A DNA stretch of 64,000 nt from Astropecten irregularis (taxonomy: Eukaryota; Echinodermata; Asteroidea; Paxillosida; Astropectinidae), in contig OZ020250.1 in assembly GCA_963971285.1 (NCBI GenBank), forward strand, positions 21,046,783 through 21,110,782, read 5' to 3'. How positions within the stretch are numbered: the first letter of the stretch is position 1; each line of letters opens with the position of its first letter. Below, piece after piece: positions 6,851-62,047 of the stretch. The notes beneath the pieces are model-generated. The model saw only the letters and a list, made by a program, of their open reading frames with translations. It ran no database searches and was not told the DNA's origin. The position numbers and the translations under genes are program-made.

Positions 6851-15961
<9,111 letters not shown>

Positions 15962-25300: not shown

Positions 25301-28300
25301 GGAGCTTAAAATGGTTAAACATTTTGCTGTACATAATTTCACTTGCAACTGTAGCAAGACAAAAGCTAGTCTTCCTCAATGACTAGGCCTACCCTCACTG
25401 AAAGGACTGAACGCAACATGTCTGTTCATCAGTGTGTTTCCATGATAGTAGAAGCAAAGTAAAATAAATGGAAGAATTGTGACCAACATTGTGTTCTGGA
25501 TTTTATCACAGAATCAAAGTCAAGACATCCGGCGTTTCTTTACACCTGGTCATCACGTCGAAGGAACCAAGAAGAAAAAACGTAAACATTCCTCACTCAG
25601 CGTGCCGGCCGAAACTCCACCGAACCCACACAGGGTGTCCAGCACAGACGCTAGCTCTACGAGTATGATCTACATCAGTGACGATGACGATGACTTCAGA
25701 GCCACCAAGAAACTGCGACACTGTAAGGACTTGAGTCCCAAGGAGCTGTTTTCCGAAGAGGGTGACACTAGTGTCCTGGCTTGTTCCACACCAGATGAAG
25801 GTGTCCAGGATTCTGATGTGGACTCTAGATCAGTTGAAGATACTCCAACTAGACGAGATGCGGGCATCTTGTCAGAATGTTTCATCGCGGATGACCTTCC
25901 TGCAATGAAGAGTAATAAGAAGCGCCGATGTAGCAGCAAAGAGAAAATGGGTATAGCTACAGAATCTCCGCTGATTTCACGTCCAAGAACATTTGATGAA
26001 GGTGACTCTGAGATCAGTCAGGACATGAATACACCAGCCATACCACAGAGCAGAAAGAAAGATGATACTCACTCTACGACTCACAAAACCAGCAAACGTC
26101 TCCAAATTGACAGTCCTTGTACTCCCAAATCATTTAGACATCAATCAGAAGGGTTGATGAGTTCATCCACTGAAGTGGTGGACATTGTCTGGAAGTGTTG
26201 TGCTTGTACTTTTGAGAACCACCCCGACCTTCCATTCTGTGAGATATGCAGCACACCAAGGAAGACCACAAGGAGACAAGTGCCGAAAACAAGAACAGGG
26301 ACACCTCGGGATGGTACAGTGTCTGGACCATCCAAAAAGCAGAGTCCCGGTCTCTCCCATGATGCTGACTCACAAGATGCTTCACGTTCAAAAGACAAAT
26401 CCTCATCTCAAAGTTCAAGAAATTTCACATCAGAACCTACTCCCAGTGGTTCTCTGAAAGGTACAAAGATGGATCAGGCTGGTCAGAGCAGCTACTTGCA
26501 TCCCACACCCCTGAATGGAGATGAAGCAAAAGCTGCTCAAACCGCCGATGAAGAGGACGACATGTTGTCAAGTTGTGAATCAACAGAAATCTTGTCAAGA
26601 ACTGATAATCCCTCAGACTATGTGATACTTTCTGACTCAGCCACCCATGAAGACTTGGAACACAAATCTACCGAATTCCAAACATCGGTCAGTGAGCCAA
26701 ACCTACTTGGAGAGACTGAAGAAGCAACTGATGACTCTCTTACAGAAGAATCCACATCTGAACAAAACGAATGGACTTGTGTCGATCCTTACTGCTGCTA
26801 CCCGAACAAGACTTACAACAGTGAATGCGAAGTGTGCCTGAGTCCAAGACCCACATGCCAAGTGTCTTCGACTTCAAGGCCCTCTGGTTTCATCACAGCT
26901 TCTCGGGTTCATCAATCAAATCCAAGCAAAGACTCAAAGCCAGAGTTGCTGGAGGAAGCACCACCTGAGGAAACAGCATCCACTTTGGAGCAGACAGACA
27001 CTACCGATGACGTCGTCCACCATGAATCTTTTCTGTATTTTCCTAGCAGACACACTGACAGAATCTACCTGTATGACCAGGTTGGTAAATATGCAGCGCA
27101 GCTCTTATTTTCCATTTGAAAAAGTGTATGATTTAATTCATTTGTCATTGCCAAACCTTGGATTCTGTGCCATCAAAAAAATGCACATGTCATAAAATTT
27201 AGGTCCGATGAATTTTGCCGAAGAATATGCCAGAAGAAAAATCCATCAATAAATGAATAGTGGGCACCGTAATGGGAGTGGAAATTTCACCGATGACTCT
27301 TACTGTGTCTTTCTTGATTATTTTTGCAAATGAATAGTATTTATAAAAGTATGAAATTACCTTGAACATTTGAGTCATTATTTCATATTTGTCGGGTTTG
27401 TTTGTGTATCTCAGGATGGAAATGCACTCGACTGTAGCTTCCTAGCCATTGATCTACAGCACCGTGACCTTGATGCCTTACCAGAGGTCCTTCACAATCA
27501 GCATAGCATGAGCATCGCCATGCGGTTTCTCAGAGAATGGAATAGGTAGGTATTAGTGCACTGTCACATTTTTGTTTTTAATGTAAACTGGGAATGTCTA
27601 ACAGACGTTTTAATGTATTTTGAATCTCTGTGTAGTATGAATTGTGGAAATGTACAGGGAGTTCTTACACTGCTGCTACGACTGCACCTTTGATGAAGAA
27701 AATTAGGGTAGAGCACTTAAAGACCAACTAGGAGAATAACTACATAAGCTTTCGTAGTAACAAATATGAAGTAGTTGTTACTACGAAAGCTTTAGTTATT
27801 CTCCTAGTTGGTTTTTAAGTGCTACCCTTTATCATTTCGATAGACTGACACAACTATCCACGATTTTGCCTCTTTGATGTTATCAATGGATCAATGTAGA
27901 CAAGATGATTTTCCTCGGGACTATAAATGAAATGGAAATGAAACTAAATCTTCAATCGGCTTGGCTTAGAGCCAATGACTTCCTGTATTGCCAATATGAC
28001 TTCCTGTATTGCCAATATGACATCCTGTATACTGATACAGACATCCTACCGGTTACACCACTAAGGTATCGGGTTACTAGTCATATACACGTACTGAAAC
28101 AAATACTTGCAAGTTTAGCTCATAATTGTTGTCATACCTATGGAAGTCATAGCATTTGATGTGCATGACATTCATTAGTCTGTCATTTATTTCATAAATT
28201 CAGTTTGAACGAGGTGAAGAGGAAACAATTACGGAAGATGGGAGACATGTTTGACAGTCCTATACAAGCACTGGAAGCCATGAAGAAAGGCCAACCCTAC

Positions 28301-43797: not shown

Positions 43798-46700
43798 TCA
43801 CTGAGAGTGTTGACTGACATGCGTGGGCACGGGAGGGGGTGGGGGCGGAGGTGGGGGTGCCTGGGGTACCGCTGAGCCGTCTTCAGGGGGCAAAAAGACG
43901 CGGGATGCTGGTGGATACTGGGCCGTCTGTCGGATAGACTGTCTCGGGGAGTTGAAATCCTCCATGGGGTAGGACTCCTCGTTGGTTGCCATGGCAACAC
44001 CATCACTCGGGAGATACATTCTGTTGGCCCGCGGGTCTTGGTGGAAATACATTTGTTGGTTGCCGTGGTGATGGGGGATGGACGAGACTGATCTGCTGGG
44101 GCGCCTGTAACCGTACATACTGGATTCGCTGCCGTGCATTTGATAGCGGCTTGAGTCCTGTTCAGATGAGAAAGAATATCGTAACCATCAGTGATGCTAA
44201 TCAATTGTGTCAATTTCACCAAATTCATCTAGCTTACTATCAATCGTAGGACTTATGATGCATTGCAGTCCTACATATAGGATAGGCCCCCTACGATGGG
44301 TTATCATTCGTGACTAGAGTTACGATTGATCGTAGGGCTTCGTGAAATTGACCCACAACCCAGACCTGGGGCCAATTTCATGGAGCTGCTAAGCACAAAA
44401 AAATTGCTTAGCACAAAAATGTCTTGCCCAATAAAACAAACCATCTTTAAAAATTCCATTTGATATTCATGGTCAGCGAACAACAGCAAAAGAGCAATCA
44501 CAAGTGATGCACCACACATGGAAATTTGGTTGTTAAGACAGAAATTTCATGCTTACATGTAGTAAATTTTGTGCTAAGCAGGGCAGTGAAATTGGCTCCT
44601 GCTTTGAGCAATTTCGAAATCATGTTAAATTTTTTAAATTTTGCTAGAGTATTCCAAGCTGTTAGAACAGTGCAATACTACCACTGAACTGACCTCCAAA
44701 TATCGATCCATTGGGATGGTTTCTGGAGCCATGTACGGCCGCACAAAGTTATCCCTGTAGTCTGCTTCTTGGCCATGGTGATAGTTGCCGAGGGTCCGTA
44801 CCTCTCTGCGCATTCTCCGCTACAAATTGGGGGAAAAAAAAGAAATCCATTGAAATACAAAGTTGACAATAACTTGAACAAGGCATAAAGTACAGTAGTG
44901 CTACTTAGAAAGAATACAAAAACCAGCCAAAAAGGTTTAAAGCTTTCCTATCTATTCTGATTCTGATTTTGTGATGCCAGTCATTTGGCTTGATTGTGTA
45001 CCTCCACTTCTGGCAGCCCGTTCATTGCCACAGTGATGCTCCTGGCCTGCGACTCAAACTCCTCCTCCATGAAGTCAGGGTTGTCCTCCCCTGTCTCGCT
45101 CTCCTGTCTGGATCCATATGTGGGTCTTGGTCTCACGTACTCCTCCTGTTGACCACTCTGTGTTTCAACAAATTTATTTCATCTTTATAACGAAAATATG
45201 CTAACAAGCTTAAACAAGTATACACAGCAGTGGCGTATCTAGGAAGGGGCAAGGGGGCACGTGCCCAGGGCGCCACTTTTTAGAGGGCGCAAAAACACAA
45301 AGGCAAAAAAAGAGTAGCTGTACTGTTGAAGTTATTGGAAATGTAATTCAATGAACAAAGAAAGAAAGATTCCAATTTCAAATTGTGTGATTTTTTTTCA
45401 TTGACTTCAGAAGTTGGAATTAGGGACGCAATTTTAGTGCTTGCCCCGGGCGCAGTTTTCGCTAGATAGGTGTATCAAAGATCAAAGTATCAACGTTTCT
45501 TAGAATTGAAAGTGTGAAATCAAACAGGTCATCATTCTCATCATTTCTCTCTTTTCTTCCACCCATGATGAGTCAAAGATGAAATTGAACACTCTAGATT
45601 TCATCAAGGGTTAGCCATCTAAGATTAGCCAATCGGTCACTGTGTCTGCAAGGAATTGCAAGGCTCTTCAAAATGATGCAGTATTTGAACAACCACTTTA
45701 AGGAGTGCAGTAGAACGTGTTTCTGGTTGATGATCTTTGAAATACTTTCTCTTCTCCATACCCTCCAGATTGGTAGAAGACTGTTTTATAAGACAACCTG
45801 ATGCTCAACAAACCTGGGTAGCAAGTGGCTCCTCCATGTTGTTGTTTAACATTCTCTCAGCGATGGTGTGATCCCAGACCTCTTCGTCCTGAATGAAGCG
45901 AGACAAGTCCCGCTTGGGCCTTGATCTCAGGGAGACCTTCTGGAGGTGCTTCTTGGTCTGGCGGTGGTAGAACACGAAGCAGAGGAGAAGGCCAACGCTG
46001 ATTATCACCAGACTGGCCACGGAGGTCAGGCTGATGACCAGGATCAGTGTGTCCGAGAGACCTGCAAAGATAATGGTGACAATGGTAAGTCAGAGCAGGC
46101 GCAGTTCTACGGGGGGGCTAGGGGGGGGCTGTAGCCCCCCCCCAAAAAAAATTTAGTCTAGCCCCCCAAAAAAAATGCAAGTGAAAAAAAAAAAAATCTT
46201 GAAGATACTGGATTTTTTCTGTTATAAAGCGCCAATTACATTAAAAACGCGTTGTGTGGGCTATAATGTGCATGTTTTTCGACCCCTAATAAGACATAGC
46301 AGAAGCGAGTGTTAGAAGAACCCAAAATATTGGGTCTTCTAGCCCCCCCAAAAATAATGGCTCTTCTAGCCCCCCCAAAATGTTGGCTCTAGAACCGCGC
46401 CTGAGTCAGAGTAGGTTTGGCTTATTAACTCATGTGCTCAATCATTCAAATATAGCTATAACGTGCTTGGAGTTAGGAGGACCTGACGCGTTTTGATCCT
46501 AGCAGGATCAGGCCCTCCTAACTCCAAGCATTTTATGCATTTTACAAATTTCAGGTTATTATTTTGGCTGATAAGCACTGTGCAGCAGTTTATTACTTGT
46601 AAGGCTATAATGTGGTAATTTTGGAACAAATGGGCATTTATATAATGATAGGTGCACAATTCAAGCAGATTTTTACTAAACTGCAGGATCCGTTTGCAGC

Positions 46701-49700
46701 TGTTGCAGATTATAGGGCTTTAATTTGGGTAATGTTACACACCTGTCTTCTCTACATCTTCACATCGAGTTCCTGTATATCCCTCTGGACATCTAGAAAA
46801 CACAGAAGAAATATCGCAACTTAATTTCAAAAACCAAAGTCTTGATCATTTCTTTGGGAAAGACAAAATGTTTCTTGAAGGCGTATCTACTTTTTAGGAG
46901 GAAAAACTTGAGGTTGCTTTGGCAGAAAGGGCCATCTTGTCAATACATCCATCAGACAATCTGTAGTATTCATAATATGTACATTTTCATACTTTATTTT
47001 CCTCTAAATCTACTGTACGTGGATAAACCTTTGTGTATAATTGAAAAGTGAACAAAGAAAAATTGACTGAAGTGGGATTCGAACCAGCGATCTCTTGAAT
47101 ACCGTACCGGCACTCTTACCAACTGAGCTATCCAGCCCTATGTTGGTCAATTATCTTTGTTCGTTTGGCTGTCAGAAGACATGAAACCACGCACATACCG
47201 CTATATCCCAAGGATCATTTTATCGATGTGCGCAGCAATGCTGCAACCTGATAAACAGTACATGGGATCACTTAAAGAGGATGCAGCTTTTTAATCAATA
47301 TAATTAAAGGATTGAATTACAAACCTGCATATTTGCTCTCCAGTCTCATAAACATTGATACATGATCCGCCATTGAAGCAGTTTGACGATGGGCAAAACT
47401 CTAAACAACAAGAATAAATTTACTTAATGTGAGAAAATGTTTATACACAATTTTTCTAATCCACAAAGTCATGTGTTGAAGGTGTGTGCAGACTTTGGTG
47501 CATTTAAGATTGAGATAAGTCCAGTTATAGTAGTGAATGTGTGGTAAAAAGTCCATGTAGAGTAGGTCTATGAAACTTTCACTTTCAAGTTTGCTGATAT
47601 TTTGAAGATCAATGGAAGATAAAAGTCTGACAGCAATCAAGCAATCAGTGGGAGCATGCGCTGCAACAGCGCATTGCTGCATCTACCTTCAAGTGGTACT
47701 CCTTCGATCTCCTGATGGCCATCCCCCAGGCAGTCACGCGGCCCATCCCCGTCCCCATCTCAGCAAAATAATGATCTCAGCAAAGCTATATCAATGATTT
47801 GCGAGGAAGCCTTTTGGAGATTAATAACCCTGACCATGTTTTACCTTGACAGACTCTGCCAGGATTGGAAACAACCTGTGGTGATCGATCCACAAAGCCA
47901 TTAAGACACTGGCAGCTGTATCCCTCAGGACGTGTGTCTGTAGCAAAGCAGGTGGCATTCCGCGAGCAGTCAATATCTCTGGAAGTCTCACAAATTGACG
48001 GCGTGGGAGCTAGTGGGAAGAAACCAAACCAGAAGTTAAAGTTTTGGTGGCAGGTTCTCTTGTGATTGCAATTTTTGGACTAGACTGGCTGTCCTCTCTG
48101 CTTTGGATTGTGCCTGGCTTGCTAGACCTCACGGATGCTTACCTCATCATGGACAGGTAGGCTGCAAGTGTTTGATAGCAGTATTCTCTCTTTTACTAGC
48201 TGTAAACTTAAACAAATATCAGCCGGATCTGCTCTGCTTTACACAGCCATTTCCACATGCTGTAACTGACTTGCAGTTTGAAATTATTCTTCTCTTCCAT
48301 AGAGACTGAAATTTATTTCTGCCTGTGCATTGCTGAAATCATAACAAACACCAAAATACCTGCTGACAAAAATGCAAAGGGTTTTCCATTCTCTTACCGA
48401 CACAGATCCTTCCAGGCGCAACAGAGGGCGAGACATCGATGAATCCATCATAGCAGTAGCAGGTGTATGTGCCTTGGAGATTGACGCAGGTGGCATTCCT
48501 CGAGCAGTCATTGGTACCGGGAGCGGCACATTCATCCAGGTCTGATGATTGAAGAAGGAAAACCAAGATGGAGATGAGCCATTGCAATTCTGTAAGTACC
48601 CTTCTCATATTTTGTTGTAGTCTTCTCTACATGAGATTCAAAATTGTATTCAAAATTGTGTATTGCAAGGTGGGCATGGCAATACAGATTGTTATCAGGC
48701 CGCCACTTGTTCGCGCGGCATGTCATACTATACTTTGAAAAGTATGAATAAAAGTGTACTCAGAATTCACTGCAACAGGTATAAACGGATAGGTAATATC
48801 CTCAGCTACATTTTGGTGCAAATAGCAGCTCGATACCATGCGTATTTGCGGAGTAATAGTCAACAGATCGACATTTTGAACAGTTTGATCATAAACAAAG
48901 TAAAGGGCAGACAATCATTGTCTGTGAGCGTCAAATTTTCAAATAACCACGATGGAAACTGACTGGTATAATTTTAAGTCATTGGAAAGTGACTTAAGAG
49001 AAATTGACTGGAGCGGGATTCGAACCAGCGATCCCTGGGATACCCTACCTGTGCTCAACCAGCTGAGCTACCCATGTCCCTAATAGTCAGTTAGCTTTGT
49101 TTGTTTTGTAGTCAGTTTGGTACAGTTTCAATCAGGTTTTCCTTGTTTTATTCCAATTGCATCAACAGAATTTAAAATTTATGTATTTGACATACATATT
49201 TACTGGTATATTTGTTACTTGGATTAAGTGAGGCTAGATATAATTATGTAACCATTGTAAAAAGGAGTAGTGTCAAGTACGTACCAATGACGGTACTCGA
49301 GGCAACGTCCACTGTAATATTGAGCCTGCCTGAGTTCACATTCCTTGCGTATGACTCTTCAAATGCCGATTGAATTTCTGATGGATCGGATGGTTGCGAC
49401 TGACTTTCATTCATATGGGCCACATAATCTACAACAATCGAGCCTTGTGTAAATCCTAAGACTTCACTTCCAAGGTAGCGCCCTGAGACTGAAGAATTGC
49501 TGGTCATGTAGATGCTGTCAATCTGTGATATAAAAAGAGTCATTGAAAAGTGAACAATGAAAAAATTGACTGGAGTGGGATTCGAACCAGTGACCACTAG
49601 AATACATTACCAGTGCTCTACCAACTGAGCTATCCAGCCCGATGTTGGCAGTGTCTCTAATTAATAGTCAATTGTCTTTGTTCATTATGATATAAAGAAC

Positions 49701-52700
49701 TATTAAGAGTACTTCAGAGTACAAGGAGTTCAAAATGAATATTTTAAGTACGTGTCAGCATGATCACAGTATTACCTTTTAAAATTCGCCACACATACAT
49801 GCAAAACATGTATGAGCACTGTTGCATATAATTTGACTGAAACGTTAGTCAACCAAGAATGATTAGAAATCAAGTGGGAATTGCCTTCGGGAAGATTCTA
49901 GATTTAATTCATTATCTCCATCATTTCATTAAGGAGCGAGTGCTGTGGTGTGGTGCAATCATCCGTGTACGTTGTATGAACTTGTCATCAGCTTTATAAT
50001 TACACCTGCTACTAATTATGATATGAATATGCCAAGCCTATACCACTGTACATCAAGTAAGATAATTTGATGCAATTGCACTTAATAAGTTCTCATCATT
50101 TTCTCTCATTTTATAATTAGTGTAGCCACCTATAGAGCCTATTACTTTGTCATAACGTAACATAATTTGTTTGTACAGGTAATAAACTACTGCAAACTGC
50201 TCGTCAACCAAAATGACCTGAAATATATAAAAGTTTGGAGGTAGGAGGGCCTGACGTGTAACAATCCTAACAGGATCTTTCTCAAAGGCTACTTGGATGC
50301 AATATGAGTAGCCAGCGTTCTATAAGAGCATCTTAGTAAGGACATGATGACTTACATAAAAAATAACCCATTGCTTTGAAGTCAGTTGGTGCCTTTATTC
50401 CCCTATACTATCCCATGAACTGGACACCTTACCGTTTTTTCCATATTTGCTGCCATCGTCTTGAATGTATCCGAGGAGGGATCTTCCAACTCTGGACTGA
50501 AGACGGCCTGGCGACTTCCAACCTGAGTGATCCGCATAGTTCCGCTGAATGATTGGGATGCTGAAAGTGTATCGGAAACAAAACAGAACTTTTGTCAGCT
50601 GGAACATTTATCTGGTAGCGTCTATTAAAGATGCAAGCTGAAATTAAGAGTATGATGTTTGTGGATTGACCGGTTTCAGACTTACATGTACAGACGCCAT
50701 CTGATTCAACGAAGAATGGTAGACACTGGCAGGTGAAGGATTCTTGGGTCTGTGCTACACATCGGCTGTTCAGTTGACTGGCACAGGGACTAGAACTGCA
50801 TGGATCTGTAGTTGAAGTAAAATAGTTCATCGATGAATATGTAAACTGGAGGTACACTAAAATGTCAGCTCAAGTCTTGCATCCTTTCATCTTGAATGAA
50901 ACCTTGTAGTTCTATAACAGAGAATTTACTCTCATCGGTCCTTCTCAGGACCACACACCTTCCAAAAGATTGTTATACATGGTGTCTCCGCAAGCCTTAC
51001 TCGTCTCTCCGCCATATGCAAAACTGCAAATCCTAAACAATAAGCAATATTTAAAACTTGGTTGCTTTTTCAAGGATGGTTTGGGTTTTTTCTCTTCTGA
51101 CTTCTTGTTGTACTCACCATTTTCTGTCACTAGGATAGGATTTGTTGTCGGAACCCCGTCCGTTGGCTCGGTTGGCTCGGTTGGCTCGGTTGGTTGAGTT
51201 GGCTCGGTTGGTTGAGTTGTTGGTAGACGGGGTGTCTCCATTGCCTGTGTAGTCAGAACTTCCATTGCCTGTGTAGTCAGACTTTCCATTGCCTGTGTAG
51301 TCAATACTTCCATTGCCTGTGTAGTCAGAACTTCGGGAGGTGTTTCTGTTTCTGTTTCACCTGGTCTCGTGGTTGCATCCTGTGGTTGAACTTGTTGAGT
51401 CGTGGGTTCTTTTTCCTCTGGTTGTGAAGTTGTTGACTTGACCTCTTCATCTTCCTGACTGGTTGTTGATTCTGCTGGTTCAGCCGGTGGCATAGTCGTT
51501 GAATCTTCTTCATCTGGTTGTGGAGTTGTTGAGTCCACCTCTTCATCTTCCTGACTGGTTGTTGATTCTGCTGGTTCAGCCGGTGGCATAGTTGTTGAAT
51601 CTAATTCAGCAAATGGTGTCGTGAATTCGGGCATTGGAGGTGGCTTCCATATTTCTGTTTCAATATAAAGAGGACTCACAGGATTCAGTTTTAAAATTTA
51701 GTTTAACAAATTGTGTGGTTATAAGATCGTTTTAATGCAAATATACTTCAAGACTTCTGTTTTGTTATTGACTTTGGAAACATTTCCCCACGTTTGTCAG
51801 TTTAATCTCATGGTTTCACTTAAAGAACATGTTGTTCTATATAATCTAATAATTATGTACCTTTACACATCGGAGGAAGGCCATCCCAGATTCCATAGCA
51901 CGTGCAGGTCAGGAACGGCGATCCAACAAGCTCATACCCCGGCAGGCAGAAATAAGCGATCTTGTCTCCTTCAGCAGGTGGTCTTCTTTCAGGCGTTATA
52001 CCGCCGTCACCTCCTGGCTTCATGTCATTGGGATCTCCACTTCCTGGCTCCATGCCACTAGGATCTCCACTTTCTGGTGTCACACCACTAGGATCTCCAC
52101 TTTCTGGCATCATACCACCCATTGTTCCATTACCTGGCATCATACCACCTGTAGTCATATTGATTCGAAGGGGGTTACCACTCTCTGGCATCATGCCACT
52201 TCCATTGCCACTTCCTGACATCATTCCACCATATGGATAACCTGGTATGAATTCCCCATAGGGAAACCGAACACAAGGTTTGGGCCTCATTCCGTGTCCT
52301 CCAAACAAATCTTTCAGATCGTCCCAAGTCAGTGATATGGTACCAAATAAAATTTCATCAGGAAAGATTAATTCTAATTGTTGCCATGGTATTTCACCTT
52401 CTTGAAAGTGTCCTATTATATCTGCTACAATTTCACCGCTCCATAAATTGTTAAGCAGCAACCGTAGAAGCCTGTCTAAAGCATCTTGATTTGCTCCAGA
52501 CATCTCACCAGGAGGCATTCCCTGGTTCCCATTTAGCACCTGATCAATGGACCATGGCCATCCCTGAAGGTCAGTTGGAAAACCCGAGGGAAATAATTGG
52601 AAGAGAGTTTCCCACTGCATGGTGCCATTTCCAAATGGAAGTCCAAGAGGCAGCTGCTGCATCAATTGCTCCCAGGTTTCACCTTCAAGTTGAAAGTCGA

Positions 52701-55700
52701 ATATGCCTGGTGGTAAGAGGCCAGTCCACGCATCTATGTCCCCTAGGACAGCAGGCAGCCACGTCTGTATAACATTTAACAGCATTTCCAATACTTGAGT
52801 ATCAAGAGGTGCTATGTTACCACCACCACCACCGCCATTTTGTGGTAAGGTTGAAAGCAGCAAAGACCAAACTTCACTCCCAGGAGGGGGCCCTTCTGGA
52901 AACATCATGAATAAAACCTCCCAGGGAACTGTTTGGCCGTTACCAGTTGGTATGCCATCAGGAAACATTTGGTAAATTTGTTCCCATGTCAGATCACCTA
53001 CTCCCAATGGTCCACTCCATGGAGTTACTGGAGTCATACCAGGAAAGATCCAATCAGGAGGCCCATCTGGAAACAGCATGAACAGCACTTCCCATGGAAT
53101 AGTTTGGCCATTTATAGGAAGACCATCAGGAAATCTTTGGTAAAGCTGCTCCCAAGTCAGACCGTCACTTCCAAAATTCAGGAAACCTGTTGGGATTTGG
53201 CCGGTCCATGGAGTTACTGGAGTCATACCAGGAAAGGTCAACTCAGGAGGCCCATCTGGAAACATAATGAACAGCACTTCCCATGGAATAGTTTGGCCAT
53301 TTATAGGAAGACCATCAGGAAATCTTTGGTAAAGCTGCTCCCAAGTCAGACCGTCACTTCCAAAATTCAGGAAACCTGTTGGTACTTGGCCGGTCCATGG
53401 AGTTACTGGAGTCATACCAGGAAAGGTCAACTCAGGAGGCCCATCTGGAAACATAATGAACAGCACTTCCCATGGAATAGTTTGGCCATTTATAGGAAGA
53501 CCATCAGGAAATCTTTGGTAAAGCTGCTCCCAAGTCAGACCGTCACTTCCAAAATTCAGGAAACCTGTTGGTACTTGGCCGGTCCATGGAGTTACTGGAG
53601 TCATACCAGGAAAGGTCAACTCAGGAGGCCCATCTGGAAACATAATGAACAGCACTTCCCATGGAATAGTTTGGCCATTTATAGGAAGACCATCAGGAAA
53701 TCTTTGGTAAAGCTGCTCCCAAGTCAGACCGTCACTTCCTAAATTCAGGAAACCTGTTGGCACTTGGCCGGTCCATGGAGTTACTGGAGTCATACCAGGA
53801 AAGGTCAAATTAGGCGGCCCATCTGGAAACAGCATGAACAGCACTTCCCATGGAATAGTTTGGCCATTTATAGGAAGACCATCAGGAAATCTTTGGTAAA
53901 GCTGCTCCCAAGTCAGACCGTCACTTCCTAAATTCAGGAATCCTGTTGGCACTTGGCCGGTCCATGGAGTTATGTCAGTCATATCAGGAGGTGTCATGTC
54001 TGGTGGCCCATCTGGAAACATCATGAACAGCACTTCCCATGGAACAGTACGATTACGAATGGGAAGACCATCAGGAAATCTTTGATAGAGTTGCTCCCAC
54101 GTAAGACTGGAATTTCCTAAATTCAGGAAACCTGTTGGTACTTGGCCGGTCCATGGAGTTATGTCAGTCATATCAGGAGGTGTCATGTCTGGTGGCCCAT
54201 CTGGAAACATCATGAACAGCACTTCCCATGGGAGAGTACGATTACGAATGGGAAGACCATCAGGATATTTTTGATAAAGTTGCTCCCATGTCACACTATC
54301 ACTTCCTAAATTCAGGAAACCTGTTGGTACTTGGCCGGTCCATGGAGTTATGTCAGTCATATCAGGAGGTGTCATGTCTGGAGGCCCATCTGGAAACCTC
54401 ATGAAAAGCACTTCCCATGGGACAGTACGATTACGAATGGGAAGACCATCGGGAAATCTTTGATAAAGTTGCTCCCACGTCAGATTGGCATTTCCAAAGT
54501 TTAAAAAGTTGGCCGGTACTTCTCCTGTCCATGGGGCATTTTGACCAACACTTGGTGCCGCTGTTGTTTCGTTCTTTGATACTCCACCACTACCAAATAT
54601 CGTAAAAAGCGTTTCCCATTCAATTGTTTCACCACCGACAGGGATACCATCTGGCAGCTGCTGATAAAGATCTTCCCATGTTTGATTGTTATTACCCATA
54701 TTCAAGAAATCAGTCGGTACCTGTTCCGTCCAAGGAAACATTCCATCCATGCCGGAATCCCCAGAAGGAAGCCCATTTGGAAAGAGCTCAAATAAGGTCT
54801 GCCATGAAATGGTGGTTTCACCAACTGGGACCCCGTTTGGAAGTAATTGGTAGAGATCTCGCCATGATAGACTGTCATTTCCTGGGTTTAGAAAGCCTGT
54901 TGGGACTTGACCGGTCCATGGAATTAGACCCAGGTCACTTCCACCGCCTAAATCAACTCCACCGCCCAAAGAAGTCCTGTTACGAATACCCGTAACAGGA
55001 AGTCCACCAGGAAATACGCTTCGCATTTGAGTCATTGATATTTGTCCATCTGCAAATGGAATTCCGCCAGGAAACATCTCAAACAGCGACTGCCATGGGA
55101 TGCTTCCAATTTGAGCAGACAGTTCCTCTGGGACAACCCCGCTCACCAAGCCTATGAGACTAGACAAAGGACCACCGGCATCAGGTGGTAGGACTCCATC
55201 TCCATGATCTCCGGTCGCCGTGTCATTTACTGGTCTCTCTTGACCTTCACCTCCGCCAGTTTGGGGCCTCGGCGTGCCTTCCCCTTCACCCTCGGGCCTC
55301 ATATCGCCAATTCCTGGAATAAGGTCTCCTACATCAATGTCCCAGTTGTTTCCTTGGGCTTCAAGCCATGCCATAAATTGACCAAACATATCTTCCCATG
55401 ACAAGTCCTGGGGGAAGACGTTACCGCCATCAGTTCCTTCTCCTTCGTCACCTCCGGACATCGGTCTTTCTCCACCAGGGTTGCCACCGTTGCCAGGCAT
55501 CATCGGGAGGAAGACCCCATCTCCGAATGGGAAGCCATCTGGATAGAGTTGGAATACCTCCTCCCATGACAAGTGATTGCCATCTCCCAGCGGGATGCCA
55601 TCGGGCATGAAGTCAAGGATTTGGTCCCACGGAGAGCTTGGCAAAACAGACGGTGCCGCATCATCATCCCCTGTGGGAAGTCCACTCATGAAAAGTTGGA

Positions 55701-58700
55701 AGAAGCTTTCCCATGAGATCTCGCCACTTCGGACATCGAGCAGAGCTTCGAGTAAGTCTTTGCTCCAGTCGGGAAGCGGGTTTAGTATTTCGGGATAATG
55801 AGGTGGATGGTAGTGTGGAGGCTCGTGTGGGTGGTGGCCCATAGGGGGAGGAAGATCGTGCCAGTTGAAATCCTCCCATGGACTTCGGCTAGATGGAATA
55901 ATTTTACTTTTCCCATTCTCAGGAGCTGGAGGAGCATATTCACATGAACCTGCACACAAAAATAAATGATAAAAGAGAGAAACAAATCGAGGATTATTAT
56001 ATCAATTGGGTTGCAAGTTCGGCTTCTTATTCTGCGCAATTCTTGCGTATAATACAGCTGGAACCTGCCCATCAATCAAAAATAATGGATCTGAAATCAG
56101 GGTTAAGCCAAGTGTCTGACTTTTCTTGGAGGATCATTCAAAATATCTGAACAAAATGTGTTTTTCGTTCAATGGTATTTAATTCACTGTTAAAAACACT
56201 GTAGACACTTACGTCTGCATTCTGGTATTGGTCCGCTCCATTCACCGTCAATGCAGATAATCCATTTCGGTCCCACCACAACAAACCCTGGCTTGCAAGA
56301 GAAGATAACCTTGTCTCCTTCTTTGTACCTTCTCCTATGCATTCCATCAACATGGAGCCACAAAGGTGGACAGAACTTGGGTTTAGGCTTATCAGTTGGC
56401 TCTATTGTAGAGCTTGGAAAGGGAGTGGTTATTGGTGGTGGTGTAGGTGGAAATGGAGTTGTGGGCGTGTCAGTTGTTTGAGCTTCCGTTGTGGCAAACT
56501 CTTCATCTGCTTCCGTTGTGGCAACCTCTTCATCTGCTTCCGTTGTCGCATCCTCTTCATCTGCTTCCGTCGTCGCAACCTCTTCATCTGCTTCCGTTGT
56601 GAGAACCTCTTCTTCTGCTTCCGTTGTGGCAACCTCGTCTTCTGCTTCCGTTGTGGCAACCTCGTCATCTGCTTCCGTTGTGGCAACCTCGTCATCTGCT
56701 TCCGTTGTGGCAACCTCGTCATCTGCTTCTGTTGTTGCTTCCTCTTCATCTGCTTCCGTCGTCGCTTCCTCTTCATCTGCTTCCGTTGTGAGAACCTCTT
56801 CATCTGCTTCTGTCGTCGCAACCTCTTCATCTGCTTCCGTTGTGAGGACCTCTTCTTCTGCTTCCGTTGTGGCAACCTCGTCATCTGCTTCCGTTGTGAG
56901 AACCTCTTCATCTGCTTCCGTTGTGAGAACCTCTTCATCTGCTTCCGTTGTGAGAACCTCTTCATCTCCTTCCGTCGTCGCTTCCTCTTCATCTGCTTCC
57001 GTCGTCGCTTCCTCTTCATCTGCTTCCGTTGTGAGAACCTCTTCATCTGCTTCCGTCGTCGCAACCTCTTCATCTGCTTCCGTTGTGAGAACCTCTTCAT
57101 CTGCTTCCGTCGTCGCAATATCTTCATCTGCTTCCGTTGTGAAAACCTCTTCATCTGCTTCCGTCGTCGCAATCTCTTCATCTGCTTTTGTTGTGGCAAC
57201 CTCTTCGTCTGCTTCCGTTGTGAGAACCTCTTCATTTGCTTCTGTCGTTGCAGCCACATCAGCCCCATCAGTTATTGCAATTTCACTTGCCGGAGTTGTT
57301 GCTTCTTCCTCGTTCCCAGGAACAAATATTTCTATGGAACGAAACAAAAATGAAGCATAAAACAGTCACATTGCTGCATTATGGACACACGGCCACTATA
57401 GTACCCTGTTTTCTAGTTGCAAATGTAACGATCATGTCTGCATCGTTTTTCCAACTTTGTTTTACCTATGCAAGTCGGTATATCGTTACTCCATGATCCA
57501 TCGGCACACGTTATTTGTGCAGCACCAGTCAGTTCATATCCACTGGAGCAGTTGAATAAGACGACATCTGCGTGATTGTACGTCCCCATCTGGGTCCCGA
57601 ATTCTGGTGTCCCAGGATCGTCACAGTTTGCTGCCAATTGTAAGAAGACGATAGTAAACAATATGTGGAATCTTTTAAACACATTTTAGTGGTTCGGTGT
57701 TATAAATGCTGGTTTGAGAGACGTGGAGAATAAATAACATAACATGTGTTAGGATGAGCCGCTATCGGTTGAAACCATTATAAGCACATCAGGCGAAATA
57801 CCATCCAAGAGGTTTTTGTTTGGTTCGAGTATCCTCGCAGGTCATTCAGAAATACAAATATTGCTGAACCTAATTCTTGTCTTGCTATAAGAAATAAGCC
57901 CCGGTCTCTGTTTTTCTGTAAGGATTTCCGTAAAGCTTTGGTTGGAAGAAAATATTCAGCCGCGTTACCTCTGCAAACTGGAATGCTGTTAGACCAATCT
58001 CCATTGGTGCACGTGATCTGCTCTGCACCAATCAGAGTGTAGCCATCCGTACAGTTGAAGAAGACAATCTCAGCATTGCCGTAATTCCCTGTTTGGAGGC
58101 CAAATGCTGGCGTTCCGGGGTCCGTGCAGTTTGCTAAGAGAGAAAACAAAAAATTCGATGTTAATGGTTGTGCTGAAGAAATGGAATTGCAGTGAGCTAA
58201 AAATTGTTGACACAATACGGGCGATTTTAAAGAGTGCGCCACCAAGAGTTTGCAACGCGATGGCCATGTTTACAATGAAATTCACGACATTTGTCGACCC
58301 ATAGAGCTAGGAACAGTTCCTAGCTCTATGGTCGACCCAATGCGCGTCTGGAAAGGGTCGACAGATTCCGTGCACTATGATTGGCCAACGCATTGCAGAC
58401 TCTTGGTGGCGCAACATTAAGAATCGCCCGTACTAATGTGAAGGATGTAGAACATTAATTCACCAAGAAGGACGAAGTAGCCATGACGGACTAGTACGTA
58501 TTTTACCTCAGATTGCGTCTTTAATTTTTTGCCATTACCGTCTTTAGCGTCTTCGACTTTTATTTAATTAAAATTGAGATTATACACATCTTGCTCTTAA
58601 ACATGAAAACAGAACTGAATTAGTTTCTACTAATGATCTTACCTAAGCATGTTGGCAGCCCATTGCTCCACGTGCCATCATCACACGTGATTTGATTGGC

Positions 58701-61700
58701 TCCTAGGAGTTCAAAGCCAACTATGCAGGAGAATGTAACCACATCAGCGTGTCCGTACGAACCCGATTGGGCGCCCGAGTCAGGTGTGCCAGGGTCAACA
58801 CAGTTGGCTGCAAAAAATAATGATTCTTGTTAAACTCAAAATTTGAAGGTCGCTCAAGTTGTTAGATGGCAGGTTCATGTGTGGCGTATGGATCTTGTGT
58901 AATGCGTATTACCCTTCCCAATCTAGTGAGAGGTTTAACTACCAATACATTGTACATGTAATCATTATTACCATTTTTATTATTACACAATATTACAAGA
59001 CGCACGTGTACATATAGCACGTAACTTGGGTGCAACAAATGGGGGAAATCTGCGCTCCGGTTGTAACGAGGTTCCGGTTACTACGACAAAATTGTGAAAG
59101 TCCGACGGACCTCGTAATAACGGGAGTCGACTGTAATCATTATTACCATGACTTGCAACTCGAGTATTAAGATGTTTCGACTTGATAAATCACTTGGTGC
59201 ATTTGCGATTAGACCTTTTGAGTGAATGAAACATCTTGGTTCTTTGGTTTTCTTCTGGGTAAAACTATTTCCATATTTGAAGACTCTGATTATTAATCTA
59301 CACAATGACTAATCTTGAAAGACGTAATTATTAAAGGAAATTGTCCCGAAGAAGAACATTATAAGGCCAAGTACGATTATGGCTTGCATTTTGTTACAGT
59401 TGATTTTTGTAATAATTATTCATAAGGTGTTTACCAAAACAGGACGGAACGGCTTGGTCGTATACACCACTCCGACAGGTCGCGTTCCTTGCCCCGACCA
59501 GAGTGAATCCGCTATTGCATTCAAAGGACAGAGTGTCTCCATTGCCATAGGTGCCTGACTGTCTCCCATTGACTGGGATTCCCGGATCGACACAGTCAGC
59601 TGTAGACAAACAAATCAATCTGATTGTGAATCACATTTATTCATGTTTTGTCCATGTTAATTGATATGAAATCATGTAGGGGTGACTTATTACAGTTTTA
59701 CAGTCATAGTGATTCAACTCAGTGTTGTGGTTGGCGTATTTTGATGGAGAAGAACGGTAGGCCTAGTGTCGTAGGCCTTCTCATGTACCGGTAGATGTTT
59801 GTGAAAATACCAGTGGTAGTCCTATACTTCTGTCGAGAGTAAATGGCTTAGAAAATGGAGGAGCTTTATAAAAAAAAATGTTTGTTTTGGGAATTACCGT
59901 ACTTCACCAGAATGTTCAAACAAATTTTCTTCATTGTCATGCAGTGCAAACTCTTATGCTACCGCATTCTTTTACTTGCTACTTCTGGTATTCTGGCATT
60001 CGTCCATCATGATCATGGTATTGATCAAGCGGCTACAATTAATTTAATGGGTTTTGTTGACCCAGTTTCAGTCATTTTGACGCAATCTTACCTTCGCACG
60101 TAGGCACGGCATTGCTCCATGTACCAGCTGAGCAAGATATTACACTGGCTCCTACCAGACTAAATCCTCCGTTGCATGTAAACCTCAGAACACCTCCGTT
60201 GTCGTAGGAACCAGATTGAGCGCCATTAACGGGTGTTCCGGGATCGACACAGTTAGCTGAATGAAGAATGGTTATATGCATCGAGTGTTAGGATATGAAT
60301 ATTGCACTCAATCCATTTCCGTTAATTTAGAACAGATATCAAAAATGGAGCCGAAGCGGAAGCCAGAGCCGGGCCGGAGCCGAGGTTTTGGGAAGGCCCT
60401 TTGTTCAGGCATAATGTATAGGGTTTGGTGGAAGAATGACTATGTCATTTGAATAGTGCCCTCCTCACACTGTGTGCCACTTCTCATGTAGGACACGTAC
60501 AAAATTATGAGAATATCCATGACGGAAAGTTTGATAATCAGGTTGAAGAATGCTCACCAAGACATGTCGGTAAATCGCGGCTCCACGAGCCTCCCTCGCA
60601 GCTGATCACCGAAGCTCCCACAAGGTCGTACCCTGGGTCGCACTCAAAGGTGACCGTAGTTCCCATCAGATACGAAGGGGTACCAACCTGCGAACCTTGG
60701 TCTGGTGTTCCCGGATCGTTGCAGTCGGCTATAGATCCAGGAAGTATAAAGTGAATAGATCGTTAATGCGATTATATCATGACAGTGATGGGCCGCATTC
60801 AGTGCATCGATCGCTTAGTTATGTTCAAGGAGAAATGAGCAATTACTTTGTCTTCACTCGTCAATCGAAATCCAGATAAAGATCATTAAACATGTTCTTT
60901 TTGCAGCATTTGCTGTGTAAGAACTGGGAAACGTTTCATAATGATTTTTACCTGAGCATGTTGGTATTGATAATGTCCAGCTTCCATCGATGCACGTTAT
61001 GACAGGTGCTCCTACGAGACTGAAGCCTGGATCGCACGTGAAGCTTACCGTGGTGTAAGCCAGGTAGGTCGGTGTTCCTTCCTGCGTTCCATCCACTGGA
61101 ACTCCGGGGTTCCCACAGTCCACTGAAAAGTTCCGAAACGTTTGGGAATTGGTTAATACCACCGTCTCTTAGATAGTTCCAAGAAAACCCGGGATGTTAA
61201 AAAGACTTGAAACTGTTCAGGGGTCGATTTCACCAAAACTCATCGTAACTTACTATCAATCGTGGGACTCATGATACATTGCAATCCTACGTTGGATACG
61301 ATGGGTATATCCTTCGTAACTCGAGTTACGATCGATCGTAGGACTTCACTAGCTGCTACAGTCCACCTTACCTGATGCGTGATTAATGCGTCAAAGGTTT
61401 AGCACACAATGCTTAATTTGGCTGGATACGCGGAAGTTTACTCAACCAAAACTTAAGGTCATCATTTCCGTATTAAAGATAGACTCTTTGTGTTGGCCAT
61501 AAGAATTAAATATTTTAATTGGCAGAGATAAATACAAATCTGTTATTGACCAATATATAGGGATTTGTCCTGGTTACTCAAATTATCTATATAATAATCC
61601 AAAACCACAAGGGAAATTGACTGGATTGATTTTAAGTGAAAAGTGAACAAAGAAAACTTCACTGGAGCCACCTTCGGAAGTAGCTGGTTCGAATCCCGCT

Positions 61701-61977
61701 TCAGTCAATTTTCTTTGTTCACTTTTTAATGACTTCAAATTATAATTAATTAGTTCTATTTAAAGTAAACGCTGACTGCCACTGATGTAATTGGACTTAC
61801 TGACACACGTGGGCACCTCGTGACTCCAAGTCCCTGCAACACACGTGATGCTTGGTGCGCCAATCAGACTGAAGCCTGACGTGCACTGGAAGCTAACGGT
61901 GTCACCGTCGTTGAACGTACTGGTTTCCGTTGTAAGAGACAGGTTTGGCGTGGTTACAGGTGCGCTGCATGATTGAC
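43798..61977 (-). CDS. Giant sushi/mucin-like/EGF-SEA transmembrane protein
   Basis: At least 22 exons, N to C: 61801-61977, 60952-61122, 60558-60728, 60092-60256, 59435-59599, 58643-58807, 57969-58133, 57466-57630, 56213-57331, 51861-55949, 51118-51654, 50686-50805, 50433-50560, 49285-49522, 48398-48541, 47845-48009, 47325-47400, 46743-46792, 45814-46061, 45002-45157, 44694-44819, 43798-44157. They join in frame to about 2,966 residues; the signal-peptide exon is not visible. Order: CCP1-8, acidic Thr array, CCP9, W-motif repeat array with CCP10, mucin-like stalk, EGF, SEA, three EGFs, transmembrane helix, cytoplasmic tail of about 290 residues. The first exon is read open upstream to 62,047 but with GTG, not ATG, so I end it at the CGACAG acceptor. 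The EGF-SEA-EGF-EGF-TM part follows MUC13-type mucins; sushi modules suggest ligand or complement-type binding. Probable cell-surface or cilia/gut surface mucin; function inferred only from domains. No orthologue name recognised. Confidence 0.88.
44206..44355. repeat. GATTTCAC foldback family, copy 8
   Basis: TCAATTTCACCAAATTCATC to GTGAAATTGACCCAC in the last intron of the giant gene. Confidence 0.75.
44365..44600. repeat. TTGCTTAGCACAAAA family, copy 2
   Basis: CCTGGGGCCAATTTCATGGA to GTGAAATTGGCTCC, closely matching 7,780-8,030. Lies right beside foldback copy 8, whose outer bases are similar. Confidence 0.75.
45226..45475. repeat. CAGTGGCGTA-type MITE
   Basis: Starts CAGTGGCGTATCTAGG with GCCCAGGGCGCC; the far end carries GCCCCGGGCGCAGTTTTCGC and CTAGATAGG. 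The GTGGCGTA-CTAGG start is widespread in hAT-like MITEs. Right terminus imperfect. Confidence 0.55.
46096..46403. repeat. hAT-like MITE with 8-bp target duplication
   Basis: Termini CAGGCGCAGTTCTA and TAGAACCGCGCCTG are inverted repeats, flanked on both sides by AGTCAGAG (46,088-46,095 and 46,404-46,411). Interior holds repeated TCTAGCCCCCCCAAAA blocks. Eight-base duplications are a hAT hallmark. Intron of the giant gene. Confidence 0.85.
46470..46526. repeat. GGAGGGCCTGACG repeat, copy 5
   Basis: GAGTTAGGAGGACCTGACGC and GCCCTCCTAACTCC face each other around GATCCTAGCAGGATC; compact hairpin. Confidence 0.65.
46743..48541 (-). other. Three membrane-proximal EGF domains
   Basis: 48,398-48,541: DLDECAAPGTNDCSRNATC, a calcium-binding type EGF. 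47,845-48,009: CETSRDIDCSRNATC...GYSCQCLNGFVD, a sister copy sharing DCSRNATC and the SP.V..PGR.C ending. 47,325-47,400 plus 46,743-46,792: an EGF split by a phase 2 intron (FCPSSNCFNGGSC / RCPEGYTGTRC). An optional symmetric 72-bp exon may lie at 47,687-47,758. Confidence 0.85.
47040..47160 (-). repeat. tRNA-derived SINE
   Basis: On the minus strand GGGCTGGATAGCTCAGTTGG...GGTTCGAATCCC: full A and B boxes, and acceptor-like arms GGCTGGA/TTCAGTC that can pair with two G-U pairs, but no proper anticodon stem. Flanked by the CAATTTTTCTTTGTTCAC block shared by the family. Confidence 0.7.
48977..49105 (-). repeat. tRNA-derived SINE
   Basis: Minus-strand GGGTAGCTCAGCTGG and GGTTCGAATCCCGCTCCAGT, same family as the copy at 47,040, in the intron between SEA and EGF exons. 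Confidence 0.7.
49540..49690 (-). repeat. tRNA-derived SINE
   Basis: Minus-strand GGGCTGGATAGCTCAGTTGG and GGTTCGAATCCCACTCCAGT with the same flanking blocks; lies 18 bases from the SEA second exon acceptor side. Confidence 0.7.
50238..50290. repeat. GGAGGGCCTGACG repeat, copy 6
   Basis: GTAGGAGGGCCTGACGTGTA, GATCTTTCTCAAAGGC; single copy in an intron of the giant gene. Confidence 0.6.
50930..51010. repeat. CATGGTGTCNCCGCAA repeat fragment
   Basis: CTTCTCAGGACCACACACC, then TACATGGTGTCTCCGCAAGC. Related pieces at 62,080-62,145 (TTACATGGTGTCACCGCAAA) and 29,500-29,600. Confidence 0.5.
51118..51654 (-). other. Exon 11: Thr/Pro mucin-like stalk
   Basis: 179 residues rich in Thr, Pro, Glu and Gln, no Cys. 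Contains a duplicated block STTMPPAEPAESTTSQEDEE, four TTQAMEVL units (24 bp) and a TEP tripeptide run. Typical of an O-glycosylated stalk placed before EGF-SEA in membrane mucins. Confidence 0.88.
51861..55949 (-). other. Exon 10: 4,089-bp exon with about 32 W-x-x-L-F..FPDGLP motifs
   Basis: One uninterrupted exon, phase 1-1, 1,363 codons. It opens SCEYAPPAPENGK, a typical CCP start, and closes GDKIAYFCLPGYELVG...LPPMC, a typical CCP end. Between are about 32 copies of a 15-17 residue motif W-[EQDR]-x-[LM]-[FY]-x-x-[FLY]-P-[DNGS]-G-[LIVFP]-P. In the middle they pair into a 63-residue (189-bp) unit starting PWTGQVPTGFLN: ten full units and one short one (about 52,880-54,925). A tail of ESGDPSG-type ten-residue repeats follows. 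Only six Cys in the whole exon. I know no named domain with this motif. Confidence 0.9.
56213..57331 (-). other. Exon 9: 27-bp TTEADEEVA array plus CCP9
   Basis: About 28 complete and one partial nine-residue units TTEADEE-[VEI]-[ALF] (27-bp period, about 56,480-57,255), then a Thr/Pro linker (PTTPFPPTPPP) and one CCP: C..GDKVIFSCKPGFVVVG...GEWSGPIPEC. The Thr pairs suit O-glycosylation; the Glu/Asp content makes the stalk strongly acidic. Because 27 is a multiple of three and lacks stops in several frames, long false frames exist on both strands here. Confidence 0.9.
58217..58434. repeat. Foldback element with central palindrome
   Basis: Outer arms of about 50 bp (GGCGATTTTAAAGAGTGCGC... 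and its complement to 58,433). Inside is an almost perfect 31-base palindrome CATAGAGCTAGGAAC-A-GTTCCTAGCTCTATG (about 58,300-58,330). In the intron just before the CCP7 exon in transcript order. Confidence 0.7.
60335..60402. repeat. Fragment of the hexanucleotide MITE
   Basis: AAATGGAGCCGAAGCGGAAGC...GAGCCGAGGTTTTGGGAAGGCCC (outline) resembles the right end of the copy at 39,536. Single terminus only. Confidence 0.45.
61218..61350. repeat. GATTTCAC foldback family, copy 9
   Basis: AGGGGTCGATTTCACCAAAA to CGATCGATCGTAGGACTTCA; the far terminus is missing. Intron between CCP1 and CCP2. Confidence 0.75.
61607..61735 (+). repeat. SINE-like piece
   Basis: GAAATTGACTGGATTG, GTGAACAAAGAAAACTTCAC and GGTTCGAATCCCGCTTCAGT; plus-strand B box, so a folded or rearranged copy of the tRNA-derived family. 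Confidence 0.55.
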
Positions 61978-62047
61978 CTGTCGTCAAATGGTATACATGC
62001 AATAATATGGTTGTGAGGAACACAACAGAATCACTAAAGACGCACAC

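Follow-up and report, generated by a model that had tools for sequence, protein, structure and literature searches.

In the SEA mucin MUC1 the sequence GSVVV is the self-cleavage site, and GSVVV and GSIVA also cleave in other SEA domains, as stated in parts of two papers (PMC6491460, PMC6954182). MUA-3 and MUP-4 of nematodes are thought to connect the cuticle with the epidermis at hemidesmosomes (part of PMC11304992). SP2, a sushi-domain protein, is described as a junction component in a paper on coelomocytes of the sea star Asterias rubens, and in the available portion of that paper no link was found to the gene treated here. This gene lies on the minus strand of a 64,000-nucleotide stretch of the genome of another sea star, Astropecten irregularis (assembly GCA_963971285.1, contig OZ020250.1, positions 21,046,783 to 21,110,782; this whole stretch is called the window, and its own coordinates are used below). 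It very probably encodes a surface receptor, a protein of recognisable kind, in which one exon, 51861-55949, carries a tandem repeat rich in Trp and Pro-Asp-Gly (Trp/PDG) that has no Pfam name and is apparently placed where the loops of sushi domains are normally short.

The repeat exon and its sushi ends

The exon has phase 1-1 borders and a stop-free sense frame of 1362 complete codons, the remaining two sense frames holding 90 and 84 stops. It is bordered by a splice acceptor at 55949 (...TTTTTGTGTGCAG/GTTCATGT) and a splice donor at 51861 (...TGTAAAG/GTACAT), so that the single exon proposed in the original prediction is confirmed in its coordinates, splice sites and open frame. The same prediction described an exon dominated by the repeat; the array is real, but the sushi pieces at both exon ends had been overlooked.

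These ends seem, by their cysteines and exon phase, to be two pieces of one sushi (CCP) domain. The exon starts with SCEYAPPAPENGK and ends with EGDKIAYFCLPGYELVG..CTC..GIWDGLPPMCK, and because the CysI piece opens the exon and the CysII-CysIV part closes it, the repeat would lie in the CysI-CysII loop. The putative CysI, accompanied by PPxPxNG, stands 1331 residues before CysII, whereas in the Patiria miniata orthologue nine sister modules show a distance of 24-26 residues. The spacing from CysII to CysIII and CysIV is 13 and then 12 residues, with a Trp before CysIV (13 and then 11 in the Patiria sisters). Pfam Sushi (PF00084) matches the C-terminal part of the exon at 2.6e-6, over profile positions 19-56; when the exon ends are joined, the match widens to positions 4-56 (3-56 in Patiria) and the score passes from 34.5 to 36.1 bits (from 31.1 to 32.4 in Patiria). 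Moreover, like this one, the neighbouring sushi modules occupy exons of their own. The exon holds six Cys, two beyond those needed by a sushi domain: one, at exon residue 1225, stands ahead of a Gly/Met-rich spacer, and the other adjoins CysIII. Because both are kept in all three species, they suggest a third disulphide bridge, which would tie the end of the array to the sushi core. The exon and its parts are as follows.

51861-55949, minus strand: exon with phase 1-1 borders, in which the Trp/PDG array apparently splits sushi 10 (open frame, splice sites, orthologues)
55909-55947, minus strand: putative N-terminal part of sushi 10, containing CysI, SCEYAPPAPENGK (position, exon phase, joined-ends Pfam test)
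55516-55770, minus strand: diverged N-terminal Trp/PDG modules (profile domains 1-3, aligning with the Patiria orthologue)
54994-55098, minus strand: isolated module PWQSLFEMFPGGIPFADGQISMTQMRSVFPGGLPV, aligned in three species (profile domain 5, alignment)
53062-54918, minus strand: core array of ten 49-residue unit cores, eight of which, from residue 473 onward, keep a strict 63-residue period (profile domains 6-15; tandem array 53016-54498)
52888-52989, minus strand: last core unit, with two PDG half-motifs (profile domain 16)
52582-52728, minus strand: C-terminal unit, with a single counterpart in each of the other two species (group with Pm1541 and Ap568 at 100/100)
52297-52443, minus strand: diverged last module LWSGEI...LTWDDLKDLFGG (profile domain 18, aligned in three species)
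51991-52215, minus strand: Gly/Met/Ser-rich spacer from the array to the sushi C-terminal part (alignment, Cys positions)
51862-51978, minus strand: C-terminal piece of sushi 10, CysII-CysIV plus one extra Cys (Pfam Sushi 2.6e-6, Cys positions)

The 63-residue unit corresponds to a period of 189 nucleotides (nt) detected by Tandem Repeats Finder (TRF) at 53016-54498, with 7.8 copies and 94% matches. This length had been foreseen as a double unit, but the full unit is composed of three Trp elements, namely WTGxVPTGFLNxG, TWExLYQxFPDGLP and PWEVLFMxFPDGPP. The number of copies varies with the pattern: the literal motif W-x-x-[LM]-[FY]-x-x-F-P-D-G-[LIF]-P has 7 matches in the exon, a medium Trp/PDG pattern 25, a loose one 29, and a still looser regular expression gives 30 half-motifs, so that the earlier figure of about 32 copies is right solely for the loose motif. 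Across 2000 residue shuffles the counts never exceeded 0 (literal), 1 (medium) and 1 (loose). A unit profile, built with nine exon units that match by construction, found 18 domains along the exon; for 17, the independent E-value is below 1e-4. The array (1158 residues) contains 142 Asp and Glu, 29 Lys and Arg (4 Lys) and 52 Trp. Twelve columns are invariant across 14 units from three species and, between diverged copies, nonsynonymous divergence (dN) is well below synonymous divergence (dS); the array is thus not random low complexity, as had been anticipated.

Gene architecture, orthologues and relatives

The gene spans about 62.0-43.8 kb, as placed by tblastn with the proteins of Patiria and Acanthaster planci. 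Exon borders other than those of 51861-55949 are approximate, being bounds of tblastn matches.

61802-62029, minus strand: putative signal peptide region and sushi 1 (Patiria orthologue residues 6-82, 60%; bounds approximate)
60953-61123, minus strand: sushi 2 (Patiria 83-139, 70%; match bounds)
60556-60726, minus strand: sushi 3 (Patiria 141-197, 81%; match bounds)
60081-60257, minus strand: sushi 4 (Patiria 197-255, 75%; match bounds)
59436-59600, minus strand: sushi 5 (Patiria 252-306, 80%; match bounds)
58644-58808, minus strand: sushi 6 (Patiria 307-361, 75%; match bounds)
57943-58158, minus strand: sushi 7 (Patiria 354-438, 60% at 57904-58158; approximate)
57467-57634, minus strand: sushi 8 (Patiria 416-470, 82% at 57470-57634)
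56205-57330, minus strand: Thr/Glu-rich TTEADEEVA linker, then sushi 9 at 56205-56414 (TRF; Pfam Sushi 1.7e-10; tblastn 73%; upper bound approximate)
51000-51650, minus strand: Thr/Glu/Pro-rich linker, IWKPPPMPEFTTPFAEL here versus IMKPTMMPDYTQPFAEL after Patiria sushi 10 (open reading frame text; bounds approximate)
50678-50815, minus strand: EGF-like domain (tblastn 57% and 63%)
49289-50564, minus strand: SEA domain with GSIVV, two exons, 50430-50564 and 49289-49522 (tblastn 61-69%; Pfam SEA in the orthologues; translation)
47327-48575, minus strand: EGF-like domains, three exons, 48399-48575, 47846-48007 and 47327-47407 (tblastn, translation)
45832-46062, minus strand: transmembrane helix (by eye) and start of the cytoplasmic tail (73% to Patiria, 79% to Acanthaster)
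43840-45160, minus strand: cytoplasmic tail, spread over three exons; contains NPDF and ends in a proline run (tblastn, translation)

The linker ahead of sushi 9 contains a TTEADEEVA-like Thr/Glu array (56482-57242, minus strand; 27 nt x 28.2 by TRF), and at this position Patiria has a Thr/Pro/Ser-rich linker of differing sequence. Short coding arrays of 9/18, 24 and 33/96 nt are also found by TRF in the linker that follows sushi 10 (51162-51602, minus strand). The tail includes the NPxF-like stretch GEDNPDF(M/I)EEEFESQ in three species (45002-45160, minus strand), and the proline run lies at 43840-44160 on the same strand.

Both orthologues are annotated as uncharacterized. In that of Patiria (LOC119745597, 2598 residues) Pfam detects ten sushi stretches along with SEA and EGFs. 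That of Acanthaster (LOC110974526, 1640 residues) begins within the array and contains the sushi C-terminal part, SEA and EGFs; Pfam SEA is detected at 1.6e-12 in the former and 2.9e-13 in the latter. The array is present at the equivalent place in both, with 10 profile domains in Patiria and 7 in Acanthaster. Identity to the orthologues is 35-43% in long matches over the array and 52-89% over the C-terminal exons, and GSIVV is found in the SEA domain (49289-49522) of all three species. The extracellular location proposed at the outset agrees with these data, since the orthologue has a putative signal peptide (by eye), sushi, SEA and EGF domains before the transmembrane helix.

Two large protein searches with the repeat, in which the best 7999 candidates were scored within a length window with word sampling, gave only the Patiria and Acanthaster orthologues. 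In the A. irregularis genome no copies were found elsewhere, the 14 matches with E of at most 10 all lying in the exon. Neither kind of search has so far lent support to a repeat family shared among different surface proteins. The C-terminal region retrieved 16 proteins: the two orthologues, nine proteins of the MUA-3 pattern (seven of them from named nematodes), one Patiria SEA protein and four others. When the repeat profile was applied to these 16, only the orthologues passed; three more stayed below threshold (E 0.34-3.2, no domain), and none of the 14 non-orthologous proteins has a passing repeat domain. The Patiria SEA protein (P0012), named serine-rich adhesin for platelets-like, has three SEA-region matches and Asn/Ser/Thr repeats and is without the PDG repeat. 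Possible paralogues are indicated by matches of 31-61% to the EGF or EGF-transmembrane part at G000:C10:10594221-10595130 and G000:C24:10188054-10190090; two of these weak matches hold an internal stop. A literature search, with most subscription journals outside its scope, found no paper naming LOC119745597 or LOC110974526 and no description of a Trp/PDG repeat.

Elsewhere in the window, a 555-codon open frame at 25452-27116 (plus strand) shows a RanBP-type zinc ribbon below cut-off, and the hexamer AGGCTC is repeated 22 times at 13359-13490 (97% matches, TRF).

Growth and fold of the array

Adjacent 189-nt copies differ at 0-35 bases. A tree was built with 20 units; a single member of an identical pair was entered, and neither the short last core unit nor the diverged modules at the ends were used. 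The three species' C-terminal units cluster (100/100), as do Pm1217 and Ap363 (92/88) and Pm1158 and Ap303 (88/68); and the seven distinct copies of A. irregularis, eight with the identical one, group together (96/95). Judged from this grouping, the eight middle copies are an expansion of A. irregularis' own. Stars mark only two of the 17 inner branches, namely the one leading to the C-terminal trio and the one leading to the A. irregularis group, and 8 are drawn open, so that the finer branching order is not firm. Purifying selection acts between diverged copies: unit 344 and the core copies give dN of 0.30-0.41 and dS of 1.7-3.1, where dS above 1 is poorly estimated and for several other pairs is saturated and not computable. 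In 55 pairs, differences at codon positions 1, 2 and 3 number 648, 418 and 1025. From these ratios and the tree, the end units are therefore older and kept at the protein level, and the middle has been filled by recent duplication. Growth by duplication of a unit, already proposed on the first inspection of the locus, is upheld by the TRF array, the divergence of the copies and the tree. Within 53062-54534 (minus strand), three older core copies have the glycosylation sequon RNRT, and the five newest have NGQT, with the sequon lost.

As originally supposed, the repeat belongs to no named domain: Pfam gave no family at cut-off for the whole exon, for 12 three-unit segments or for eight diverged modules, and the unit profile had no matches among PDB sequences up to E 10. 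A weak match to PF24408 (wHTH-Calcineurin_assc) was taken as chance; it concerns the half-motif and covers the profile partly, with a best score of 24.3 bits in the exon against a cut-off of 27, and at most 21.9 bits in 10 of the 12 segments. In the AlphaFold model of three units, each shows the same order of elements, namely a helix at 20-26, strands at 31-33 and 36-38 and a helix at 40-46. On this model, the unit is probably a helix, a beta hairpin and a second helix, with the invariant Trp, Leu, Phe, Pro and Gly at the centre, and we moderately favour the idea that the repeat units fold as modules. It may also be, although we propose this with reserve, that the Trp/PDG unit represents a small folded domain of a new type, which would have arisen and multiplied in the sea-star lineage inside one sushi loop, so that a CCP scaffold would bear a very large folded side-arm.

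Taken together, these features are reasonably well explained by a SEA receptor resembling mucins, in which modules with a Trp core would form a multivalent array. The product would be a single-pass sea-star surface protein built like a SEA-type transmembrane mucin or adhesion receptor. From the outside in, it would consist of nine ordinary sushi domains, a sushi 10 with the Trp/PDG chain in its CysI-CysII loop, Thr-rich stalks, an EGF-SEA-EGFs region, the transmembrane helix and a conserved tail. The chain would have lengthened as the 189-bp unit was duplicated within the exon, with older diverged units retained at the ends. Sushi and EGF arrays with Thr-rich stalks could hold the molecule far from the membrane, and the acidic, lysine-poor array could form a long side-arm on a disulphide-closed sushi domain. 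Many equal units might offer many equal sites for a partner in the cuticle, the glycocalyx or a neighbouring cell, or might make an extensible arm; by analogy, this adhesive and multivalent role is a tentative suggestion. Likewise by analogy, putative cleavage of the SEA domain at GSIVV may let the ectodomain come off under load.

Several observations weigh against this explanation. The N-terminal sushi piece contributes only 1.3-1.6 bits to the Pfam score and, because joining gains so few bits, it rests mainly on the Cys, PPxPxNG and the exon phase. Cys 1225 could be taken as an alternative CysI, which would leave a 108-residue loop with the array in front of the sushi domain; we consider this less likely. 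The predicted structure of three 63-residue units, a test suggested with the original prediction, does give the recurring helix-hairpin-helix, but at moderate confidence (mean predicted local distance difference test, pLDDT, 67.2; predicted template modelling score, pTM, 0.49). A second model, of the C-terminal modules and with three sequences, failed (pLDDT 35.9), and Foldseek of the model against PDB gave 0 matches. Finally, the freshest copies (851 versus 914) have dN 0.027 and dS 0.031, with no visible selection.

The same protein, with the array at the same place, could instead carry a mostly disordered sticker-and-spacer chain of Trp, Phe, Pro and Gly, which would be extensible, self-associating or surface-adsorbing. 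Such a chain agrees with the abundance of Gly, Pro and aromatic residues (192 Gly and 181 Pro among 1383 letters), with linkers that differ in length and sequence across species, with a model confidence that ranges from 53 to 86 among blocks and is 39 in the final one, and with the missing fold match. It is hard to reconcile with the fixed spacing of the 12 invariant residues, with the excess of dS over dN in diverged copies and with the element order shared by the three modelled units, and we regard a disordered array as unlikely, though deserving serious weight. A folded array of another kind, in which the half-motif (..DGxI[ST]WExLF..FP) would be a decayed EF-hand or dockerin-like helix-loop-helix binding calcium, is highly improbable. 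The DGxIS stretches are loosely alike by eye, and EF-hand_6 appears in two of the 12 segments, both from Patiria (E 0.028 with 14.6 bits and E 0.21 with 11.9 bits, the cut-off being 25), but no family was found for the eight diverged modules, and loop positions 1, 3 and 5 are without conserved Asp in the alignment (by eye). Moreover, the profile against the hands of calmodulin scored 10.9, and among 20 column shuffles one was higher at 14.4 and another reached 10.1.

Since the animal is a sea star and the protein has repeats and EGF domains, a secreted underwater adhesive akin to footprint proteins was also considered, EGF repeats being reported for several footprint proteins in part of PMC9382459. 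The conserved transmembrane segment and tail speak against secretion, the word sushi occurs 0 times in the main text of PMC9382459, and we judge this origin improbable. An untranslated retained intron or an assembly artefact has a negligible probability, given the 1362-codon frame beside 84 and 90 stops, the purifying selection and the same stretch in predicted proteins of Patiria and Acanthaster. Near-identical tandem copies are nevertheless prone to mis-assembly, and for this reason the exact copy number is uncertain.

Comparison with known systems

Extra residues between CysI and CysII are known on a much smaller scale. CCP2/3 of HpARI has about 20, called unique in the part of the paper concerned (PMC5655542), and CCP13 of factor H has 3 (part of PMC2806952), against about 1300 in the putative loop here.

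Outside sea stars, the C-terminal region is matched most strongly by the nematode MUA-3-pattern proteins. Like the present protein, MUA-3 and MUP-4 have a large ectodomain, SEA and several EGFs before one transmembrane helix. The MUA-3-pattern proteins differ in domain content, with vWA in nine of nine and sushi in none of nine (precomputed Pfam lists), and vWA was not found in the Pfam scan of the Patiria orthologue. Because the best local matches fall mainly on EGF pairs, this is a likeness of build and not membership.

If the units fold, they represent a domain multiplied recently enough for its history to be traced, with old ends and a fresh middle, through three species. The locus also points to an undescribed sea-star surface protein, which under load may link the epithelium with its coat or with partners. 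Its build resembles that of the SEA mucins represented by MUC1: a tandem-repeat, Thr-rich ectodomain (here TTEADEEVA x 28.2 and the Thr-rich linkers), a SEA domain between ectodomain and membrane with G-S-[VI]-V-V, one transmembrane helix and a conserved tail. Unlike these mucins, it adds ten sushi domains and the Trp/PDG array, which is not a Ser/Thr-rich glycosylation repeat. The EGF-SEA-EGF mucins are comparable in the same way.

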